Shown here piece by piece: positions 427 through 25,816 of a stretch of DNA of 32,046 bases; the first letter of the stretch is position 1; every line of letters begins with the position of its first letter. This stretch comes from Raineya sp. (GTDB lineage: Bacteria > Bacteroidota > Bacteroidia > Cytophagales > Thermonemataceae). Where the stretch lies: contig JANWZC010000005.1 of NCBI GenBank assembly GCA_025054975.1, positions 1 through 32,046 of the forward strand. The letters run 5' to 3'. Position numbers and translations under genes: made by a program. The notes under the pieces are model-generated. The model had not been told where the DNA came from. It saw nothing but the letters and a program-made list of their open reading frames with translations, and did no database searches.

Positions 427-2124
427 CTATGGAATTTGATACAAATGTACTTTTTCAAAACTGCTAATTTTTCGCCAATTTGAGGGGATTTTTTTTACCC
501 ATTCAGGAAATTGCGTGCCAATAAGCTCAAAATAAGCTATGCTGTATTCGTTGATAATTACGTATTTGTTGAATTTACTTTCTGCAAATTGAGGCAAGTC
601 TTCAAAATTTCTGAACAAAACTCCTTGTGGCACTTCAAAACGAAAATACCACCTATGCCCTGAAACAAGTTTATCATCGGTAAATACTACACAAGGTTGT
701 TGAAAAAGATTTTGGTAGGTTTGAAAAATTTGCTTTTCGTATTTGTAGCCTGTTTCGGTAGGTTTAAGCATCGTATAAACAGGATGTAAAAGCAAGAAAA
801 ACAAAAGTAAAACTTCTATTTTTAGAAATTTGAGCAAATTTTTGAGTTTTTGGAAATTATGTAATCTAAATGCTCTTTTTATTCCTATCAGTGAGATTAT
901 TGGGAGAGACCGCTCCCCCTCTCCTTTGGAGAGGGGGCTGGGGGGTGAGGTCATACACTCCCCCTCTCTTTTGGGGTTTGAGGTCAGCCACAACACAGCC
1001 AAACACGCATACAAAATAACCACTTTCCAACCCAAAGTTTGATAAGCAAGCACTGCGGAAATAAACATCAGAATAGCTGTGAAAATATTGTAAGGTTTTT
1101 TGCAAACAACTTCGGCAGAAACAATAGCCGATAGTGGCACTAAAAACAAAATATGACGAGGAAGTAGATAAATAGGAGTATAGTTTCTAAAATCCACAGG
1201 CATAAACCAAAAACTCAAAAGTGCCAAAGCAAAAAACCAAGTATTGAAAGTTGTAAAATTTTGTAAATTTCGGTTGAGAGCAAATATTCTGAGCAAAGCA
1301 CCTGCAAAAGAAACAATTAAACCTGTCTGTATAAACATCAAAAAAGGTGCATAGCTCAATCTTTCCAATAGAAAGTCTTCACTCCTAAACTGAACATAGT
1401 CGGTATGCCCTGCTTGAATAAGTGTGAATTTGAAAAAAGGAGTTTGCGTAAAATACGCATAAAAAATACTGTAAAGTGCAAAAAGAGCAAACCCTGAAAT
1501 AAATGCAGAAAGCCAAAAATGCAAATTTTGTCTTTTTAGCACATCATAGATACATACGCCTATGTAAAAAGGCATGGCAAAAAGGATAGTTTCTTTACAT
1601 AAAAAACCCCAAAAATTCAGGAAAGCAAATAGCAAACCTTTCCTAAAACTATTTTTTCGTTTCCAAAGCAAAATTATTGCCCCTAATATCAATGTAGTAA
1701 GTAAAACATCAGGATAAAGTTTGTTGGCAAAAAAGAGTGTATAGAAGTCAAGTGTGAAGAGTAGCAAGGCAATTTCTTTTTGCGGTGAATGGAGATTTTT
1801 TTTCACCCAAGTATAAAAAAGAAAAAAACTTGTAAGCGTAGCCAAAAAAGGTACAAGAATTGTAGCAAAATCGCTGACACCAAAAATTGTGTAGGAAAAT
1901 GCCAAAGGTACAATCAACCCCCAGCGATGGGCAAAAATATCAGGATTATCAATCTGGAAAGTGCCTTGCTTAATTTGATAAGCATAGTAGGCATAAGTGG
2001 TATCATCGTAAAAATAATAGCCATCAAAGTTTGTTACTGCAAAAATCAGCAGAAAAATTATTAGAAAAGCAAATAGCAAGTTCTGACGAAACAATAATGC
2101 AAAATTCATTTTTTTGAAGAACAT
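427..2124 (-). CDS. Multi-pass membrane glycosyltransferase, ArnT/PMT-like (GT39/GT83 type)
   Basis: 565 aa ORF with many hydrophobic segments. The N-terminal loop FYDDTTYAYYAYQI...HRWGLIVPLAFSYTIFG is typical of ArnT/PMT family proteins. Confidence 0.75.
   Translation of the reverse strand: MFFKKMNFALLFRQNLLFAFLIIFLLIFAVTNFDGYYFYDDTTYAYYAYQIKQGTFQIDNPDIFAHRWGLIVPLAFSYTIFGVSDFATILVPFLATLTSFFLFYTWVKKNLHSPQKEIALLLFTLDFYTLFFANKLYPDVLLTTLILGAIILLWKRKNSFRKGLLFAFLNFWGFLCKETILFAMPFYIGVCIYDVLKRQNLHFWLSAFISGFALFALYSIFYAYFTQTPFFKFTLIQAGHTDYVQFRSEDFLLERLSYAPFLMFIQTGLIVSFAGALLRIFALNRNLQNFTTFNTWFFALALLSFWFMPVDFRNYTPIYLLPRHILFLVPLSAIVSAEVVCKKPYNIFTAILMFISAVLAYQTLGWKVVILYACLAVLWLTSNPKREGECMTSPPSPLSKGEGERSLPIISLIGIKRAFRLHNFQKLKNLLKFLKIEVLLLFFLLLHPVYTMLKPTETGYKYEKQIFQTYQNLFQQPCVVFTDDKLVSGHRWYFRFEVPQGVLFRNFEDLPQFAESKFNKYVIINEYSIAYFELIGTQFPEWVKKIPSNWRKISSFEKVHLYQIP
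915..937. repeat. C-rich palindromic repeat (CCCCCTCTCC TTT GGAGAGGGGG) inside the glycosyltransferase CDS
   Basis: Perfect 10-bp inverted repeat with TTT loop. The flank GGCTGGGGGGTGAGG and a partial second copy CTCCCCCTCTCTTTTGGGGTTTGAGG (about 958-983) belong to the same family as 13610-13632 and 22658-22681. Confidence 0.9.
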
Positions 2125-13436: not shown

Positions 13437-13788
13437 GTAAAACAAAATACTGAAACGTGAATTATGAGTCCAATCTTAGATAAGTGCAATGCAGACTTAA
13501 TCATTAAAATTACCCCAAAAATTTTTCATAAATAACTGCATACAATTAACCAACAACTCACATTGTAGGTAAATTGCTCAAAATAACGTTTTTTTAACCT
13601 CACCCCCTACCCCCTCTCCAAAGGAGAGGGGGACTCACCTAACCCCCAAGCTATCAACTTACTCATTTGAATTGTATAGCTAAATCTTGGATAAGTACAA
13701 TACAAGTCCAATTATTTTTACAATTATCCTAATTTTTTTTCACAAATAACTGCATATCAAAAACTTAACTAATAACTCACGTTGAAAT
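13437..13788 (+). repeat. Composite interspersed repeat, copy 1: two ~115-bp AT-rich units flanking a C-rich palindrome
   Basis: Unit 1 AACGTGAATTATG...AATCTTAGATAAGTGCAAT...CATAAATAACTGCATA...CAACAACTCACATTG; palindrome at 13610-13632; unit 2 AAATCTTGGATAAGTACAATAC...CACAAATAACTGCATATCA...CTAATAACTCACGTTG. Inverted homologue at 22505-22855. Confidence 0.85.
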
Positions 13789-17137: not shown

Positions 17138-18037
17138 CTAATAGGAAATCTTACAAGAGTTAGGACAACCACTGCAAATGATTAATGTTGTACCGTTTGA
17201 ACCAGGAGCAGATGTTGATTTGCAAGTACCACCTGTACAAGAACCATAACATTTTATCACAGAGAAGTCATAATGAGGTAAAGTCCTGTATTCTAATGTA
17301 ATCAATCCATTATCGTTGGGAATTACCATAAAAAAATATTTTCCTGAAACCTCTAAAGGTAAAACACTATATTCTTTTGGAATTTTACCATTTGTGAAAT
17401 CAATTTTAGGGAAAGAAATTGTTTTTTCTGTTCGTAAATCTCTGTAGAACATATTTACTAAATCATTGATTTCATTTTGTACTCCAACGTCCAATAAATC
17501 TATTTCACTGGCGGCATAAAGACTTTGCAAGCGTGTAAATGATACCAAAGGTTTAATTTTCTTGTTTGCAAAATCAGTTTTTTGAAAAAGCTGTGATAAA
17601 TTTTTTACAAATTCTGCATTTCCAATTTCTATTTCCCAAGTTTCCAAAGTCATCTTTCCTTCTCTCCTATCATATACATAAATATTGCAATGCGAACAAC
17701 CCTCACTTAAACAAGAAGGTGTATATCCTTTAGGTCCAACACTCAAAACTGGATAGCAATTTCCTTGCTGAGAACAAGAGCAAGTGAAAGTCTTAACATT
17801 TCCTCCTACTTCTCCATTAACTCTAAAAAAATAACCTTCTGGCAATTCTACTTCAAATAGCTTAATCCCCTTATCTTCCAACTCTCTAAAAGTAGAACCC
17901 ACAGGAAATAGCAATTTTTCTTCATTCAGGTTCACTTGTTTCTTAAATACTTCCTTGCTATTAGAAATTTTACTTTCACAGCTAATTAAAATTACGCTAG
18001 CCCACAAAAGTAGGGAAAATAGAAATAAATTTTTCAT
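17138..18037 (-). CDS. Cysteine-rich lipoprotein of unknown function
   Basis: MKNLFLFSLLLWASVILISCES: signal peptide with lipobox-like LISC. Two Cys-rich modules near N- and C-termini. Confidence 0.75.
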   Translation of the reverse strand: MKNLFLFSLLLWASVILISCESKISNSKEVFKKQVNLNEEKLLFPVGSTFRELEDKGIKLFEVELPEGYFFRVNGEVGGNVKTFTCSCSQQGNCYPVLSVGPKGYTPSCLSEGCSHCNIYVYDRREGKMTLETWEIEIGNAEFVKNLSQLFQKTDFANKKIKPLVSFTRLQSLYAASEIDLLDVGVQNEINDLVNMFYRDLRTEKTISFPKIDFTNGKIPKEYSVLPLEVSGKYFFMVIPNDNGLITLEYRTLPHYDFSVIKCYGSCTGGTCKSTSAPGSNGTTLIICSGCPNSCKISY

Positions 18038-18076
18038 GGCTTTTACTTTTTAAGTGAAACATTATTTTAACATCAC

Positions 18077-18263
<187 letters not shown>

Positions 18264-18397
18264 CGCAAGTCTTTTTTGATTTTTTTTCCCAAAGAGTTTG
18301 CTTGTAATTTTAACAAATTTACAAAAATCAATTTTTCATTATTTTACATAAATTTTTATCAAGTAAAAGTTCAATCAAAAAATTTTCCCAATGAAAG

Positions 18398-18440: not shown

Positions 18441-19085
18441 ATGGAGATTAGTATTTCTCAGCTTCGCCGCGAATACAAATTAGCGTCTTTGGATATTCAA
18501 GATGTTCGCAAAACCCCAATAGAGCAATTTGAAATTTGGTTCAGCGAAGCTCTGAAAGCCGAAATTTTAGAACCGAATGCTATGTTTTTGGCAACCGTTT
18601 CTGCCACAGGACAACCTTCCTGCAGAGTGGTACTTTTGAAAGGTATTATAGATGGTGGTTTTGTGTTTTACACAAATTACCAAAGTCGTAAAGGGGTAGA
18701 AATTGCTCAAAACCAATCGGTTGCACTTACTTTTTTTTGGGCAGAATTAGAACGTCAAGTTCGTATAGAAGGCAAAGCCTCTTTTTTGAGTGCTGAACAA
18801 AGTACCCATTATTTTCTTTCACGCCCCCGCGAAAGTCAGTTAGGGGCTTGGGCTTCTCCTCAAAGTCAGGTCATTGAAAGCAGAAATGTTTTAGAAAATC
18901 TTTTTGCCAAATACGAAAAAGAATTTGAAAATAAAGAAATTCCTCGTCCTACGCATTGGGGAGGCTATGTGGTTCAGCCGCATTATGTAGAGTTTTGGCA
19001 AGGCAGAGAAAACCGCTTACACGATAGAATTTGCTATGTTTGGCAAGAAAATCAGACTTGGAAAGTTCAAAGATTAGCCCCTTGA
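18441..19085 (+). CDS. pdxH: Pyridoxamine 5'-phosphate oxidase
   Basis: ISQLRREYKLASLDIQDV...PNAMFLATVSATGQPSCRVVLLKGIIDGGFVFYTNYQSRKG...RPRESQLGAWASPQSQVI...EFWQGRENRLHDR. Confidence 0.97.
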   Translation: MEISISQLRREYKLASLDIQDVRKTPIEQFEIWFSEALKAEILEPNAMFLATVSATGQPSCRVVLLKGIIDGGFVFYTNYQSRKGVEIAQNQSVALTFFWAELERQVRIEGKASFLSAEQSTHYFLSRPRESQLGAWASPQSQVIESRNVLENLFAKYEKEFENKEIPRPTHWGGYVVQPHYVEFWQGRENRLHDRICYVWQENQTWKVQRLAP

Positions 19086-19086
19086 T

Positions 19087-20097
19087 ATGCGTTTAATCCG
19101 CAAACCTGTTCTATGCAACTATTACCTGACCTACCGCTGTAATGCCACTTGCAGTTTTTGTGATATTTGGGAAAAACCTTCTCCTTACGCTAATCTTGAA
19201 AATATCCGAGCTAACTTGCAAGATTTACGTAAATTGGGAGTCAAGGTTATTGATTTTACAGGGGGCGAACCACTTTTACACCGAGAAATTGATAAAATCC
19301 TTACGCTTGCCAAAGATTTGGGGTTCATTACTACTCTTACCACCAATTGCTTGCTTTATCCGAAATGGGCTGAAAAAATTCGTGGCAAAGTGGATATGCT
19401 TCATTTTTCATTAGACTCTCCCCTTGCCCACGAACACAATGCAATGCGAGGAGTTGCTTGCTTTGATTTTGTGATGAAATCTATTGAAATTGCCCGAAAT
19501 CTCGGTGAAAGACCTGATATTCTTTTCACTGCTTTTCAGCATAACTTACATCACATTGAAACCATTTGGAAAGAAATTTGCCTACCCAACAACTTAGTAC
19601 TTATTCTCAATCCTGTTTTTGAATACAACCAAGTACGAATAGGAAAAAAATTAGAAAATGAGCATTTAGACTATCTGCTCACTTGGGCAAAAAAGCCTAA
19701 TGTGTATCTGAACGAGGCATTTATATGGCTTCGCAAAGATGGTGGCAATCATATAGAAAAATCCGTATGCCGAGCAGGAAGTTCTACCATTGTAATTTCT
19801 CCCTTCAATACATTAGTTTTGCCTTGCTATCATTTGGGAATAGAGGAAATTCAAATTGAAAATAATTTGTTGCAGATTTATCAAAGCAAGAAAGCCCAAC
19901 AACTCATTGCTTTGGAAGGACGTTTGCCTGCCTGCGAAGGCTGTGTAATTAACTGCTACATGCAACCCTCTTTTGCCGTAGAAATCAATAAATATTGGTG
20001 GAAAGCCTTACCCTCTACTCTCAAATACAATCGTTTGAAAGGTACTTGGAAAAAGTTGTTTAGGTTGAGGTTTGGAAGTTCAAAGTTGAGAGTTTAG
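19087..20097 (+). CDS. Radical SAM protein with C-terminal SPASM-like Cys cluster
   Basis: CNYYLTYRCNATCSFCDIWEK (CxxxCxxC), VIDFTGGEPLLHREI, CRAGSSTIVISPFNTLVLPCYHLG...LPACEGCVINCYMQPS. Confidence 0.9.
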   Translation: MRLIRKPVLCNYYLTYRCNATCSFCDIWEKPSPYANLENIRANLQDLRKLGVKVIDFTGGEPLLHREIDKILTLAKDLGFITTLTTNCLLYPKWAEKIRGKVDMLHFSLDSPLAHEHNAMRGVACFDFVMKSIEIARNLGERPDILFTAFQHNLHHIETIWKEICLPNNLVLILNPVFEYNQVRIGKKLENEHLDYLLTWAKKPNVYLNEAFIWLRKDGGNHIEKSVCRAGSSTIVISPFNTLVLPCYHLGIEEIQIENNLLQIYQSKKAQQLIALEGRLPACEGCVINCYMQPSFAVEINKYWWKALPSTLKYNRLKGTWKKLFRLRFGSSKLRV

Positions 20098-20232
20098 GTT
20101 TAAGGTTCAAAATTGAAAGGTTTTACGTTGAGGGCTATTTATACTCCCTTCGGCTTCGCTCAGGGAGCGTATTATACTCATTACTTTGTACTCATTACTC
20201 TGTACTACCTCTGTACTCACTACTCTGTACCA
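20058..20232 (-). repeat. Three-module composite repeat, copy A (read on minus strand: GTACAGAGTAGTGAGTA array, hairpin, CTCAACTTTGAAC module)
   Basis: Array about 20168-20232; hairpin CTCCCTTCGGCTTCGCTCAGGGAG 20144-20167; module GTTTAGGTTGAGGTTTGGAAGTTCAAAGTTGAGAGTTTAGG... about 20058-20110. Confidence 0.8.
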
Positions 20233-21251
20233 TTTAAATATTTTTGCTTAAAACGTTTGATAGCCTCTTCTGTTCCTAGAATTATCAAAACTTTATCTTC
20301 GGAAAGTTGTGTATCACTTTTAGGATTGAGGATAAAGCCTTTATTTTTATCTTTGAAAGCAATAATATTCACCTCACATTCGTGGTCATTTTGTAGATCT
20401 TTAATAGAAAGATGCCTGCTTTCAGGTCTCATTTGTGTGAAGCGTATTTCATCTAATTTGAGTTTCATTTCATCCAGCCCGCTAATCAAATCCATAAATT
20501 CCACAATATAGGGTTTCACTACTAATTGAGCCATGTGGATACCCCCAAGAGCCTCGGGCATAACAACTTTGTTAGCTCCTGCTCGGTACATTTTTTTTTC
20601 GGAAAGAGGGTCTGAATAACGAGAAATGATAAAAATATCGGGATTCAATTCGCGTGCCGTAAGCGTAATGAAAATATTAGTAGCATCGTTGGGCAAAGCA
20701 ATAATCAATGCCTTTGCGTCTTTGATGTTTGCTTCTAAGAGAATCTCTTCGTGAGTGGCATCTCCTACAATTACTTGTTTATGCTTATCTACTTGAAAAT
20801 TTTGCAAATGCGACTCTACTTTTTCAATCAAAACATAAGGCATTTTGAGGCGGTCTAATTCACGGCATACATTATAGCCATTTCGTCCATATCCGCAAAC
20901 AATAATATGATTTTTCATTTTCTTGATGATTTTTTGCGTCCGATAACGTTTCAGTATTCGTTGTAATTCACCTTCAAACAAATAAGCTGTGAGTGTGGAA
21001 ATTACAAAGGCAAACAGAGCCAAATTAAGCAAAATGTAAAAAATATTGAAAGTTCTGCCCGCAGTGGAAAGAGGATGAATTTCTTGATAACCTATCGTAG
21101 AAATAGTTATTACACACATATACAGAGCGTCAAAAAAAGTATAATCTTCAATCCACATAAAACCTAAAATGCCCGCTGAAAAACTTATCAAGAGCATTCC
21201 CACTGCAATAAACAACCTCTGTAATCTATTTCTGAAAAAAAACTTTTCCAC
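20220..21251 (-). CDS. Two-TM potassium channel protein with TrkA-N (RCK) and TrkA-C domains
   Basis: Pore region YTFFDALYMCVITISTIGYQEIHPLSTAGRTF; Rossmann HIIVCGYGRNGYNVCRELDRLKMPYVLIEK; TrkA-C-like tail. Confidence 0.88.
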   Translation of the reverse strand: MEKFFFRNRLQRLFIAVGMLLISFSAGILGFMWIEDYTFFDALYMCVITISTIGYQEIHPLSTAGRTFNIFYILLNLALFAFVISTLTAYLFEGELQRILKRYRTQKIIKKMKNHIIVCGYGRNGYNVCRELDRLKMPYVLIEKVESHLQNFQVDKHKQVIVGDATHEEILLEANIKDAKALIIALPNDATNIFITLTARELNPDIFIISRYSDPLSEKKMYRAGANKVVMPEALGGIHMAQLVVKPYIVEFMDLISGLDEMKLKLDEIRFTQMRPESRHLSIKDLQNDHECEVNIIAFKDKNKGFILNPKSDTQLSEDKVLIILGTEEAIKRFKQKYLNGTE

Positions 21252-21557
21252 CTTTCAGAGTTTTGACAATAATAAAAAATTTCAAAAAAATTCAATCTAT
21301 CTGAATGAAAGATTTTTACAAAATTTGGTCGTAGTTTAGAATGCATAATAGTAGTAATTTCTGTGCTAAAACCTACTGACTCAATACTTCTCTTTACCAC
21401 GATTTTTTACAAAAAATTTTGCATCATGCACATTTGACAACACAATCCAAAGCCATCTATCACAATATATAAGTCTCTGTTTCCGTAGAATTTTTGGTAT
21501 AGAATTCACCTAATTACATTCTAAACCAATACAAAACAAGGAAATGCTTTTAATCAG

Positions 21558-22397
21558 TTACACTTCTTTCTGCTGATTCAATTTTGTAAAGTATAGGTTA
21601 GTAAGTATGTAACCTTCCAAGCGATAATTGTTGCTTTTAAGAAGATTAAAAATTGGGTGTTGTTCAGGTTTTTCTGGGTTAAAATCTTCTGCCTCTACTA
21701 TGATGAGTCGAGGTTGGTAGCGTTCAAGGTCTAATGAAAGTAGTACTTGGTAATCATGCTCTTCAACATCTATTGACAAAAAATCAAAATTTTTGGGACA
21801 TTGCTGTTCATCTAGGATTTCTGTGAGACTACGTGGTTGCATGATTTTTTTTGAAGCAATACGATTTCCCTGCTGTAAGCATTGTTGGATATACGCTTTA
21901 TCTGAAGACGAAAGTACATCGTTAGTAAATTCTACAAATTCGACGGGCAATAGGCTATTTGAAACAAAAGCACATACTGCTTTATCTTTGGGTCGTTGGT
22001 ACTGATACTTAGCGATAAGTCTTTCGTTGGCATCTATGCAAATGCCTCGCCAACCTCTCCTGTAAAATAAAAAAGAGTTTGAGATAAAAGTTGGGTGATT
22101 GCATCCAACTTCTACATAAAAACCTGTTTTGGTGATGCGGGGTTTCAAAATGCTTTCAATCAGCCTATCTTCGCCCTTAAAGGCATAGCTCAATCGGGCT
22201 GAACGTCCGAAACTAAGCCGATTCAGCGAAAGAAAAAGATACTTTAATACTCTCAAAAAAGATAAAATCGGTGAGCGAAAAGTAAAAAACTGGGTAAAAC
22301 TCATCTTAAACTCTTGAATAGCAATACCCCATATTGTAAAAAAAGCCCGATTGATAGCCTTTTCATAGAGCAGTTTTTTGATAATAGGTAAGTTCAT
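21558..22397 (-). CDS. FkbM family methyltransferase
   Basis: FYVEVGCNHPTFISNSFLFYRRGWRGICIDAN, PKNFDFLSIDVEEHDYQVLLSLDLERYQPRLIIVE. Confidence 0.88.
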   Translation of the reverse strand: MNLPIIKKLLYEKAINRAFFTIWGIAIQEFKMSFTQFFTFRSPILSFLRVLKYLFLSLNRLSFGRSARLSYAFKGEDRLIESILKPRITKTGFYVEVGCNHPTFISNSFLFYRRGWRGICIDANERLIAKYQYQRPKDKAVCAFVSNSLLPVEFVEFTNDVLSSSDKAYIQQCLQQGNRIASKKIMQPRSLTEILDEQQCPKNFDFLSIDVEEHDYQVLLSLDLERYQPRLIIVEAEDFNPEKPEQHPIFNLLKSNNYRLEGYILTNLYFTKLNQQKEV

Positions 22398-22504
22398 AGA
22401 ATTACGGATTGTAAGAATAATATTTCAGTTACACAATATTACGAATACTTTCAAAATTGCTTGCCGCAGTTCTTAACAAACCTTACACAAAAGGCTTTAT
22501 GATT

Positions 22505-22855
22505 AACGTAAGTTATTAGTTAAATTACTGATATACAAATATTTAAGAAAAATTTGTGATAATTGTAAAAATGATCGAATGTATATTGTACTTATCTAAT
22601 CTAAGATTTGGCTACATAATTCAAGTTACTAACGTTGATAGTTTGGGAGCAAGTGAGTCCCCTTCTCCTTTGGAGAGGAGGCAAGGGAGTGAGGTTAAAA
22701 AATTTCATTTTAAGCAATTCACCTTCTTTACAACGTGAGTTGTTAGTTAAATGATACGCAGTTATTTATGAAGAATGTTTGAAGTAATTGTAAAAATGAT
22801 TAAGTCCGTATTGTACTTATCTAAGATTGAGTTGCATAATTCACGTTATAATTAG
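22505..22855 (-). repeat. Composite interspersed repeat, copy 2 (inverted relative to copy 1)
   Basis: The reverse complement reads AACGTGAATTATGCAACTCAATCTTAGATAAGTACAATACGGACTTAATCATTTTTACAATTAC...CATAAATAACTGCGTATCATTTAACTAACAACTCACGTTG...CCTCTCCAAAGGAG...CTATCAACGTTAG...AAATCTTAGATTAGATAAGTACAATAT...TAACTAATAACTTACGTTA, collinear with 13437-13788. Confidence 0.85.
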
Positions 22856-23024
22856 TCTTTTCTACAACTATTTTTTGCTACCTTTATATCAAAACAATGA
22901 AAGTAATTCACTTTTATTCGTTCTTTTGATTAACGCAAAAATAAAATCTCATTATTTGTTTCGCCCAATATTCATCATACATTTTGGAGTACAACCTAAA
23001 CCATAATCCAAAATTTTACTATTT

Positions 23025-23055
23025 TTGGGTTATTTACTAGAAAAAACTAACTTTA
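23025..23055 (+). promoter_or_regulatory. Putative promoter of the histidine kinase gene
   Basis: TTTG (23025-23028), N19, TAACTTTA (23048-23055); ATG at 23077. Confidence 0.5.
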
Positions 23056-23076
23056 CGGCAAGCTACAAAATTATCT

Positions 23077-24936
23077 ATGCTTTTCAATTTAATCAATAAT
23101 ACCAAACTCAGACGTAAATTATTTATTGCTTTTTTTACTTTTACGCTCATCATTGTTTTTGTAGCAATCATGAGTTTTTGGTTTTATGCCAAAAGAGATG
23201 AAATTCATGAAATCACCAATGAAATAGAAGAAATTACCACAGATATTCTCAAATTGGTAAAAAATGAAAATAATTTCATTGAGAAAGAAAGCCTACAAGA
23301 TAAATTCTTTCAAACGGGTATAAGCGAAAATCAAAAAAGAAATAGAGCTATCTTACAAGATTTACGAACGCGTATCAGTAAGCTAATCCAAAATAAAGAA
23401 ATTCAAGAGTTCGGTGTGGATAATCGTTTGCAAGAGCTACAAAAAGATTTGAAAGAATATGAAGCTGCTTTCAAGAGTTTTATAGCAAAAACTTTTCAGA
23501 AAGGTAACAAAAATTTCGGTCTTGAAAACGAGCTACATAAAATTACTACCCAATTAGAAGAGAAAAATCAGGTTTCCCTTGTAGTGCTTTACACGCTAAA
23601 AAGTTTTGAAAAAGATTACTTGATGAGAAAAGATTCTGCGAGTTTCACTGATTTTCATAATGCCATTCAAGAAGCTATTCAAAGTACTACTCATACTGAA
23701 AGCAGAGATTTATTGGAAAAATACCAGCAAAAATTTATTCAAATTGCAACTTTAGATAAAGAACTGAATTTATTCAAAAATAGCAAAGATGGCATCTACC
23801 AAAAAATGCGAGAAAGTAGTGATATGGCTATCAAGAAAATAGAAAATATTAGCCGTATCGTAGAAAATAAAGTAAAAAGTATGCGAGGGCAATTCCAAAA
23901 TATCTTCGTAATTACTTTGCTAATAGTAGTAGTGGTGAGTTTGACATTTAGTTATTTCCTTTCGTTTTTTATTACTATCCCTGTAACAGAGTTGTCGAGA
24001 GCTATGCATAAAGCCATTGAAATGAACTTTTCAGAAGACCTGAAACCAGCCCGCAAATATACCAACGATGAAATCGGACAACTTACTGACGACTTCAACC
24101 TTATGATGAAACGTATTCAAATGCAGTTCCACGAAATTAAAGAAAATGCTCGCCTACTTTTAGAAAGTAATCAATTTTTACAAGAAGTCAATAAACAATT
24201 AGAAGACTCCGAAAAACGCCTTGAAAAACTTGCCGCTATCAAAGAAACTTTGTTCAACACTATTACTCAAGACCTTAAAAGCCCACTTAATTCATTAAAA
24301 GGTTTTTTAAGCCTTATGCAACATCACCCCGACACTTTCAGTCAGCAAGAACTTTCAGCAGTAGCTCATGATATGTATGTGGCTTTTGATAAAATTTCGG
24401 TGATGATAACTTCATTAGTACAATGGTCTCAACTGCAAACCGATGAATTAGATTTCAACCCTAACCATTTCAATCTCAGTACCTTGATAGAACAAGTAAT
24501 TGCTCAATTTTCTCCTATGGCTGAAAGCAAGCGTATTAAAATTTTCAATCATGCCAAAGCAGACTTCTTTGTAGATGCCGACAAAGATATGATAAATTTC
24601 ACCTTACGTAATTTGCTTTCCAATGCTATTAAATTTACTCACGAAGGCGGTAAAGTAGAAATTTTTGTGCAAAATCGCGGCAAAGATAAATACATGATAA
24701 GTATCAGCGATACAGGAGTAGGCATCAGCCAAGAACTTTTAGAAAAAATCTTTCAACCTGAAATTCACGTCTCTATGCTTGGTACAAAAAAAGAAAAAGG
24801 TTCTGGTTTTGGCTTAATGATGTGCAAAGATTTTATCCAAAAAAATGGAGGTAAATTGTATATTGATAGCGAACTCGGCAAAGGTACTACCGTGTACTTT
24901 ACACTCAAAAAAGCACAAAAAAATAGTAGTGAGTAG
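23077..24936 (+). CDS. Membrane sensor histidine kinase-like protein (HAMP, HisKA-like, HATPase_c) with Gln in place of the H-box His
   Basis: Two TM segments; HAMP ITIPVTELSRAMHKAIEM..TNDEIGQLTDDFNLMMKRI; FNTITQDLKSPLNSLKGFLSLM; N box NLLSNAIKFT; G boxes ISDTGVGIS and GSGFGLMMCKDF. Confidence 0.92.
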   Translation: MLFNLINNTKLRRKLFIAFFTFTLIIVFVAIMSFWFYAKRDEIHEITNEIEEITTDILKLVKNENNFIEKESLQDKFFQTGISENQKRNRAILQDLRTRISKLIQNKEIQEFGVDNRLQELQKDLKEYEAAFKSFIAKTFQKGNKNFGLENELHKITTQLEEKNQVSLVVLYTLKSFEKDYLMRKDSASFTDFHNAIQEAIQSTTHTESRDLLEKYQQKFIQIATLDKELNLFKNSKDGIYQKMRESSDMAIKKIENISRIVENKVKSMRGQFQNIFVITLLIVVVVSLTFSYFLSFFITIPVTELSRAMHKAIEMNFSEDLKPARKYTNDEIGQLTDDFNLMMKRIQMQFHEIKENARLLLESNQFLQEVNKQLEDSEKRLEKLAAIKETLFNTITQDLKSPLNSLKGFLSLMQHHPDTFSQQELSAVAHDMYVAFDKISVMITSLVQWSQLQTDELDFNPNHFNLSTLIEQVIAQFSPMAESKRIKIFNHAKADFFVDADKDMINFTLRNLLSNAIKFTHEGGKVEIFVQNRGKDKYMISISDTGVGISQELLEKIFQPEIHVSMLGTKKEKGSGFGLMMCKDFIQKNGGKLYIDSELGKGTTVYFTLKKAQKNSSE

Positions 24937-25170
24937 TGGGTACAGAGTAGTGAGTATAGAGTACAGAGTAGTGAGTACAGAATAGTGGGTACAGAGTGCA
25001 GAGTACAAAGTAGTGAGTACAGAGTACAGGGTATAACAATGCTCCCTGAGATTACCGAAAGGCAAAGTATAGAGTATAAAGCGGCGAGTTGAAGTATATT
25101 TGTTTGTTATCTCACTAAAATCATCATCACTCCTAAACTCAAACACTAAACTTGAAACATTCAACCTCTA
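24924..25170 (+). repeat. Three-module composite repeat, copy B
   Basis: Degenerate array AGTAGTGAGTAGTGGGTACAGAGTAGTGAGTATAGAGTACAGAG... about 24924-25035; GCTCCCTGAGATTACCGAAAGG 25041-25062; CTCCTAAACTCAAACACTAAACTTGAAACATTCAACCTC about 25130-25168. Confidence 0.75.
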
Positions 25171-25185
25171 CCCCTTAGACTCGTT

Positions 25186-25816
25186 ATGTTTTCGCTATTT
25201 GGCAAAAGGGATTTACCACTTGTTCGTATAGAAGACTCCGTCTGGATAAATCAAGAGGCTAAATGGACAGCACTTAGCCAAGATTTACAAAAAGCCGCTG
25301 AAAACAAACCTACTTGGGTGATTTATTTTTTTGAGCGAACTTTTACTACCTTGCAAACGATTTTGCAAAATCTCCAAAAGCCTTATGCGTGGGTACAGAG
25401 TGCCAAAAATTTGAAAGACCCAACTAAAATTTTAATTTTCTCGGCAAATGAATTTCGGCATTTAAGCAGTTATCTGAAAAAAGAATTTAATTTGCCGGCA
25501 AGGAAATAGCCGTATTTTTCGCTGAACATTATCCTATCGCCTATGAAGAAAATGAAATCTTAAAAAAATTGGCGATATTAGTCTCAAAGCCAAAGTGCTT
25601 GCTTACACAAGTTTTGAAGAACCCATCTTAAAAAAGTTTTCAGGTGATAAAGTTTTAGAGTTATTTCGCAAAATAGGAGCAAAAGAAACTGAAAGTTTTT
25701 CTCACAAGCTCATCACAAAGACTATCCGAGAAGCACAGAAAAAAATTGGTGAAACTGTAAGAAATGAACAAAAAGCAGTATCTATGGACGAATGGTTTGA
25801 TAAAAATTTCAAATAG
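25186..25816 (+). pseudogene. Conserved-looking hypothetical protein split by two -1 frameshifts (or two sequencing deletions)
   Basis: ORFs 25186-25509 and 25595-25816 are bridged by a middle-frame segment GKEIAVFFAEHYPIAYEENEILKKL. Frames shift 1, 0, 2. Restoring 2 nt gives a 633-nt (210-codon plus stop) gene. Confidence 0.7.

Follow-up and report, generated by a model that had tools for sequence, protein, structure and literature searches.

What kind of element follows two genes of one Raineya contig in the same way? The window analysed here is a 32,046-nt stretch of Raineya sp. (contig JANWZC010000005.1, which is contig C309 of our genome G000, 2.73 Mb in 353 contigs). In this window, a K+ channel/TrkA gene on the minus strand (copy A) and a histidine kinase gene on the plus strand (copy B) are each followed by a repeat, and the two repeats are oppositely oriented. 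An earlier note had described three modules at both places, a degenerate array, a hairpin and a third repeat, and had read them as a single compound element of 3' ends, conserved in order and polarity. It was found that the first module at either locus, read on its own strand, is a heptamer array of the form (AGTANNN)n, anchored at one edge of a coding sequence (CDS) and running outward from it. The identity of these arrays is well supported, and identity and polarity together are held with high confidence, while the compound element is unsupported as a general rule.

The AGTANNN family is a tandem, degenerate 7-nt unit that is dispersed and intergenic. The 17-mer GTACAGAGTAGTGAGTA has 82 matches (≤2 mismatches) in the 2.73-Mb genome versus one for its reversed control, and four AGTA at 7-nt spacing give 130 matches versus one. 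The array analyses were performed on genome stretches (~480 kb of G000 and ~0.8 Mb of its congener G002), and 31 AGTANNN arrays were recovered in G000. The NNN vocabulary of G000 is small (CAG, TTG, GTT, ATG, GTG and others). Adjacent units resemble each other barely more than expected at random in G000, and less than that in genome G004, with AGTA constant throughout, a constancy that is partly built into the search pattern (the reversed control gave 0 in both genomes); in many other genomes the arrays are homogeneous repeats. No GGG tract occurs in the units AGTACAG, AGTAGTG, AGTATTG, AGTAGTT and AGTAATG, so that the arrays cannot form G-quadruplexes. Folding prediction gave the arrays no well-defined fold, and the centroid structure of array B is unpaired.

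On the AGTA strand, it is the 5' end that adjoins a CDS edge: sense arrays directly follow a stop codon, and antisense arrays immediately precede a start codon. With the CDS edges taken from mechanical open reading frame (ORF) calls, 25 of the G000 arrays have two known edges. The 5' end lies ≤20 nt from an edge in 23 of these 25 arrays, compared to two of 25 for the 3' end, and all 21 discordant pairs favour the 5' end; uniform placement in the same spacers predicts 7.8. The 5' and 3' ends are near an edge in 12/16 versus 5/16 arrays of G004 and in 9/21 versus 0/21 of G009, both of them related genomes, and a same-genus set gave 6/7 versus 3/7, which is too small for significance alone. An independent set was obtained by scanning GTDB contigs once with five spaced AGTA as the pattern. 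Among the matches listed, arrays occur in many Bacteroidota and Cyanobacteria, and also in Chloroflexota, Vibrio, Desulfobacteraceae and others; the 5' end lies ≤20 nt from an edge in 40/63 and the 3' end in 4/63 (39:2 discordant pairs, p = 8e-10), with 11.1 predicted near the 5' edge by uniform placement. Arrays wholly outside both CDSs, among the matches listed, still include 27 near-edge cases versus 8.2 expected. This indicates that arrays merely giving a running frame its stop codon do not create the effect.

The edge in question is not confined to gene ends, as a 3'-end element would demand: 14 of the 28 edge-assigned arrays of G000 lie at start codons in antisense, and the others follow stop codons. 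The start-edge arrays end a few nucleotides before the ATG (3–22 nt in G000, with one at 80), and the stop-edge arrays may overlap the last codons; both are as expected if selection sets the limit of array extension. Apart from the stop or start codon, inspection of the junction lists by eye revealed no motif common to the junctions, and target-sequence recognition was therefore rejected. The choice of unit also differs between the edges. GTT and ATT units make up 32/88 (36%) at start edges versus 5/116 (4%) at stop edges in G000 (p = 4e-9, a value that treats units as independent, which units within one array are not), and one of them is the first unit in 9/13 start-edge versus 1/14 stop-edge arrays. 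In gene sense, the start-edge units are TAACTAC-like and stand directly ahead of the ATG.

Orthologous spacers were compared with those of G002, where the proteins of array-flanking genes mostly share ~75–97% identity. In G002, arrays are absent at most compared spacers and present at the same edge at three (loci L016, L018 and L039), and the spacers are short (19–28 nt at four sites). The spacer of copy B measures 249 nt in G000 versus 5 nt in G002 (TAA AATTT ATG). The K+ channel ends in RFKQKYLNGTE* versus RFKQKYLQ* in G002, the first units of array A supplying the last residues (GTE) and the stop codon, and array B likewise provides the histidine kinase with its final residues and stop codon. 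Homologs of the radical-SAM protein on the other side of copy A end in ...KGTWKQLF or ...KGTWKQLLKV; in the window, the frame continues into an array to give RLRFGSSKLRV and a TAG stop. The stop codons of all three genes were rewritten by arrays, and TAG is the stop in 9/13 array-ended genes of G000 versus a background of 22%. As the orthologous spacers of G002 are mostly array-free and short, and the gene endings differ, the arrays are recent gains relative to the congener, which usually lengthen spacers and rewrite stops. The radical-SAM gene is flanked by pdxH and the K+ channel gene (window 18441–20097); these two are direct convergent neighbours in G002 (contig C15), where no radical-SAM homolog was found; the homolog in G009 also has a heptamer-like tail, GGAAATA, at its end.

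The three sequence types of the earlier note are indeed present at both loci at approximately the positions given there, except that the third proved to be a heptamer array in its own right, located on the opposite strand. Read on that strand, it is AGTTCAAAGTTGAGAGTTTAGG..., a diverged array of roughly AGTTNNN units running outward. In copy A, its starting point is the 3' end of the radical-SAM gene; in copy B, it begins a short distance ahead of the ATG at 25186. Each spacer therefore has two arrays that run inward from both flanking genes, with the hairpin between them, and the conserved module order is the convergent geometry of these two arrays. Convergent pairs were found in ~5 spacers (those of copies A and B, L018, L024 and L027); most AGTA-array spacers in G000 have no recognisable convergent partner. 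Module 3 as a dispersed family of its own was rejected, since an AACY-heptamer model gave 23 matches versus 22 for the reversed control.

The hairpin of copy A had been called perfect, whereas its outer stem is 6 bp long and its GA-rich interior is imperfect (−11.8 kcal/mol for 32 nt, z = −3.2). Its counterpart at 25041–25062 is decayed, as the earlier note had it (z = −0.4), and degenerate heptamers go on past it to ~25090. A hairpin stands 3' of the array in the same orientation at 4/31 arrays, with two intact copies and two decayed ones (copy B and L014). The core CCCTGAGCGAAGCCGAAGGG has three genome-wide matches (≤3 mismatches), of which two share the orientation of an AGTA array and lie a few nucleotides beyond its 3' end (copy A and C287:12055). 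The association of hairpin and array exceeds chance; the interior sequence is also found in other stems away from arrays. No hairpin was found beside the AGTA arrays of genomes other than G000, a literature search with the hairpin sequence returned nothing relevant, and the covariance models of Rfam 15 had no match up to E = 1 in 19900–25300. With 27/31 arrays lacking the hairpin and most lacking module 3, the compound element was rejected as a general rule. What stands of it is the polarity relative to genes, which is very strong: independent modules in random orientation had been named as the outcome that would speak against the element, and the independence was found, the random orientation was not.

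Table 1. Arrays, hairpins and anchoring genes at the two loci (window positions).
Feature	Position	Strand	Evidence
Copy A module 1: (AGTANNN)n heptamer array, stop-edge (sense) type	20172..20234	-	congener ortholog ending compared
Copy A module 2: CTCCCTGAGCGAAGCCGAAGGGAG, optional hairpin, 6-bp outer stem	20144..20167	-	
Copy A module 3: diverged AGTTNNN-type heptamer array, outward from radical-SAM gene	20058..20121	+	homolog endings compared
Copy B module 1: (AGTANNN)n heptamer array, stop-edge (sense) type	24921..25035	+	
Copy B module 2: decayed hairpin TGCTCCCTGAGATTACCGAAAGGC	25041..25064	+	
Copy B module 3: diverged heptamer array, outward (antisense) from start codon at 25186	25125..25180	-	
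K+ channel with TrkA domains; CDS edge anchoring array A	20220..21251	-	PF02254, PF07885, PF02080
Histidine kinase; CDS edge anchoring array B	23077..24936	+	PF02518, PF00512
Radical-SAM protein gene; CDS edge anchoring copy A module 3 array	19087..20097	+	
Small conserved ORF; start codon anchors copy B module 3 array	25186..25509	+	

The pattern is real and unusually strong, yet it is a variant of a class that has been described. Two Xanthomonas strains have GGGAATC repeats, and Nostoc has GGGGA(C/T)T repeats, that are found near the ORF on their 5' side whichever way this ORF is oriented; upstream of genes they occupy the non-coding strand and downstream the coding strand, overlapping stops (PMC4692102, 2015). 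Many of them form convergent pairs in Xanthomonas, where such pairs are more frequent than in G000, and the repeats were interpreted via G-quadruplexes. Distances in that study were measured to annotated ORFs, and the positional rule is the same as the one obtained with mechanical ORFs in G000. AGTANNN arrays share with these repeats the degenerate 7-nt tandem units, the dispersed intergenic location near the 5' ORF with the other end distant, the overlap of stop codons, the convergent pairs and the absence from the same genes in related species. They differ in that the Xanthomonas and Nostoc repeats are G-rich and quadruplex-forming, while in the AGTANNN family the choice of unit depends on the start or stop edge and the rule extends across many phyla.

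A second group is formed by direct TAACTGA repeats, which have a single orientation and immediately precede start codons in Beggiatoaceae, Cyanobacteria and some Bacteroidetes (PMC4679880, 2015). That study also reported one reverse TAACTGA set directly after a stop codon in Flexibacter litoralis, which fits the outward rule. Read outward, TAACTGA is AGTTATC, similar to the AGTAGTT of AGTANNN arrays. The unit TAACTGA repeated at least twice, by which such repeats are recognised, was not found, as the start-edge units read TAACTAC in gene sense, and 14 of the 28 edge-assigned arrays of G000 take the corresponding position and orientation, the others being at stop codons. Moreover, AGTANNN arrays are TAACTAC-like at start edges only, stop-edge arrays are equally common, and units are mixed within one array. 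REP/RAYT elements (repetitive extragenic palindromes with their associated transposases) and miniature inverted-repeat transposable elements (MITEs) are likewise dispersed, intergenic, lineage-specific and sometimes accompanied by a hairpin, but AGTANNN arrays lack fixed boundaries, a recognised target duplication and, in G000, a clear RAYT partner gene. Dispersed seven-base tandem repeats are also known from cyanobacteria as short tandemly repeated repetitive (STRR) heptanucleotides, which PMC4692102 also cites, with unit sequences different from AGTANNN. Taken together, AGTANNN arrays belong to the positional class of the heptamers of PMC4692102 and PMC4679880; what is new is an unrelated unit family across many bacteria.

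The explanation we prefer, to which a probability of about one half may be given, is that both loci are lineage-specific polar heptamer arrays, each anchored at one CDS edge and running outward, whose growth is limited by selection. The arrays would arise by repeated 7-nt growth and by copying between arrays in spacer DNA, and selection would permit their extension only up to a CDS edge and only in a translation-compatible orientation. After genes, AGUANNN in the mRNA sense has stop codons in nearly every frame and can replace the native stop. Before genes, NNNUACU brings almost no AUG, GUG or UUG, and GTT and ATT units add UAA stops just ahead of the AUG. Selection from translation is favoured as the filter because of these UAA stops near the AUG and the stop-rich AGUA after genes. 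The array would then be a tolerated, translation-insulating spacer and neither a terminator nor a discrete mobile element. As a mechanism, selection-limited growth with translation-compatible polarity is put forward tentatively, at a little less than even odds.

Several points weigh against this reading. The polarity beside an intact stop codon, and in convergent (stop–stop) spacers, is not readily explained by selection from translation. Slippage alone would predict identical neighbours, and the likeness observed is barely above random in G000 and below it in G004. Simple slippage as the whole story was thus rejected, though homogeneous arrays exist in many other genomes. Nothing in the growth-plus-selection view shows how units are added. 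In addition, the edges are mechanical ORF calls, and the significance of the GTT/ATT bias is affected by the dependence of units within an array. Selection-limited growth is nevertheless ranked first, followed by a multivalent binding site and polar DNA synthesis at breaks, with a mobile element and a terminator low.

The second-ranked alternative, an unlikely one, is that a putative protein would read AGTA, or UACU in the leader RNA, every 7 nt and thereby control expression. S1, cold-shock or CsrA-like proteins have been suggested to act in a similar way on TAACTGA repeats, and the start-edge units directly before the ATG come close to those repeats (PMC4679880). The constant AGTA with a variable NNN and non-identical neighbours would also suit such a site, with the reservation on the search pattern made above. 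However, most arrays are missing at the same genes in the congener, and many other genomes have homogeneous repeats. The mRNA sense is UACU at start edges versus AGUA at stop edges, which one RNA-binding protein cannot both read.

The arrays have the polarity that DNA synthesis would have if it proceeded away from both flanking genes. This suggests, as a still less probable explanation, a putative activity that extends DNA ends in spacers 5'→3' by seven-base units, the extended ends then being joined into convergent arrays, sometimes with a hairpin at the junction. The convergent pairs, which are frequent in Xanthomonas (PMC4692102), and the lengthening of spacers are consistent with it. On the other hand, most arrays have no recognisable convergent partner, no enzyme has been identified, and G000 (~93% complete) has no match to reverse transcriptase PF00078. 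Synthesis alone does not account for the anchoring in long spacers or for the edge-specific units either. A wider conjecture, which we consider slightly more doubtful again, is that a widespread putative DNA-synthesis activity writes heptamers 5'→3' outward from gene edges or breaks across phyla; the G-rich Xanthomonas and Nostoc repeats, TAACTGA and AGTANNN arrays would be its products and polarity its signature.

A non-autonomous mobile element, MITE- or REP-like with heptamer-repeat ends, is very improbable. It had been one option of the earlier note, and copy B does resemble an insertion of ~240 nt into the 5-nt spacer of the congener, with the order array, hairpin, inverted array, and hairpins are enriched beside arrays. 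Yet the ends are not fixed, the length and unit content vary, and no target duplication was recognised in the junction lists. A MITE with heptamer ends is disfavoured, as inverted partner arrays are found in only ~5 spacers. A Y1 (HUH) transposase of RAYT type gave one weak match (PF01797) in G000 and none in G002, which argues against a REP/RAYT system. The idea that the arrays need a reverse transcriptase or a Y1 transposase as partner was rejected as well, these being absent or weak in the array-richest genome. Least probable of all is the first option of the earlier note, a transcription terminator or 3'-processing element specific to gene ends: copies A and B follow a stop codon in sense with the hairpin 3' of the array, and PMC4692102 reports transcript starts or ends to be slightly more frequent at quadruplex-forming than at control repeats, but half of the edge-assigned arrays are antisense at start codons, 27/31 lack the hairpin, and neither hairpin has the T-run that would follow the GC-rich stem of an intrinsic terminator, nor was a terminator-like site called at either.

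Other repeats were noted in the same genomes. A second heptamer family of G000, (AGACACA)n/(TGTCTTG)n, was seen at L025:2064-2119, L031:1593-1637, L039:1051-1141, L046:16895-17023, L047:16033-16108 and L048:441-513, and several of its arrays also adjoin CDS edges. Loci L108–L122 of G009 carry the heptamer families AGTAAAA, GACTGCC, GAATTAC and AGTTTCG/GGATTTC, some mixed within one array. A second dispersed hairpin family, CCACTCTTTTGG...CCAAAAGAGT, occurs at L012:7414, L023:15888, L029:8246, L032:5383, L034:7138, L040:9325 and, weaker, L017:3930; its members often contain the TGAGCGAAGCCGAA interior of the window hairpin within a different and longer stem. The palindrome CCCCTCTCCTTTGGAGAGGGG is dispersed in spacers (window 13614–13628 and 22660–22676, L028, L045 and L084) and lies once in frame in a membrane-protein ORF (window 894–954 in the minus-strand ORF 427–2124), where it encodes MTSPPSPLSKGEGERS and is reminiscent of palindromic elements that have inserted into genes. 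Upstream of the histidine kinase, 22505–22628 and 22732–22848 form an imperfect direct duplication (~80–90% alike, ~225 nt apart) whose copies are separated by a CTCC...GGAG palindrome. Between two genes at 18031–18345, a tandem duplication of 161 bp contains many poly-A/poly-T runs, one of them with 31 consecutive A.

The gene-edge polarity of heptamers had previously been reported, as far as was found, in two genera and was tied to G-quadruplexes. Since the rule holds for the AGTANNN family, the polarity does not need quadruplexes. Its presence in a non-quadruplex family of Bacteroidota, Cyanobacteria and other lineages implies a more general cause, either strand-polar mutation or selection from translation. 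Short C-terminal tails of predicted proteins should be read with caution, as they can be repeat-encoded. The recent gains, the stop codons rewritten by arrays and the edge-specific units make the mutational and selective causes directly testable.

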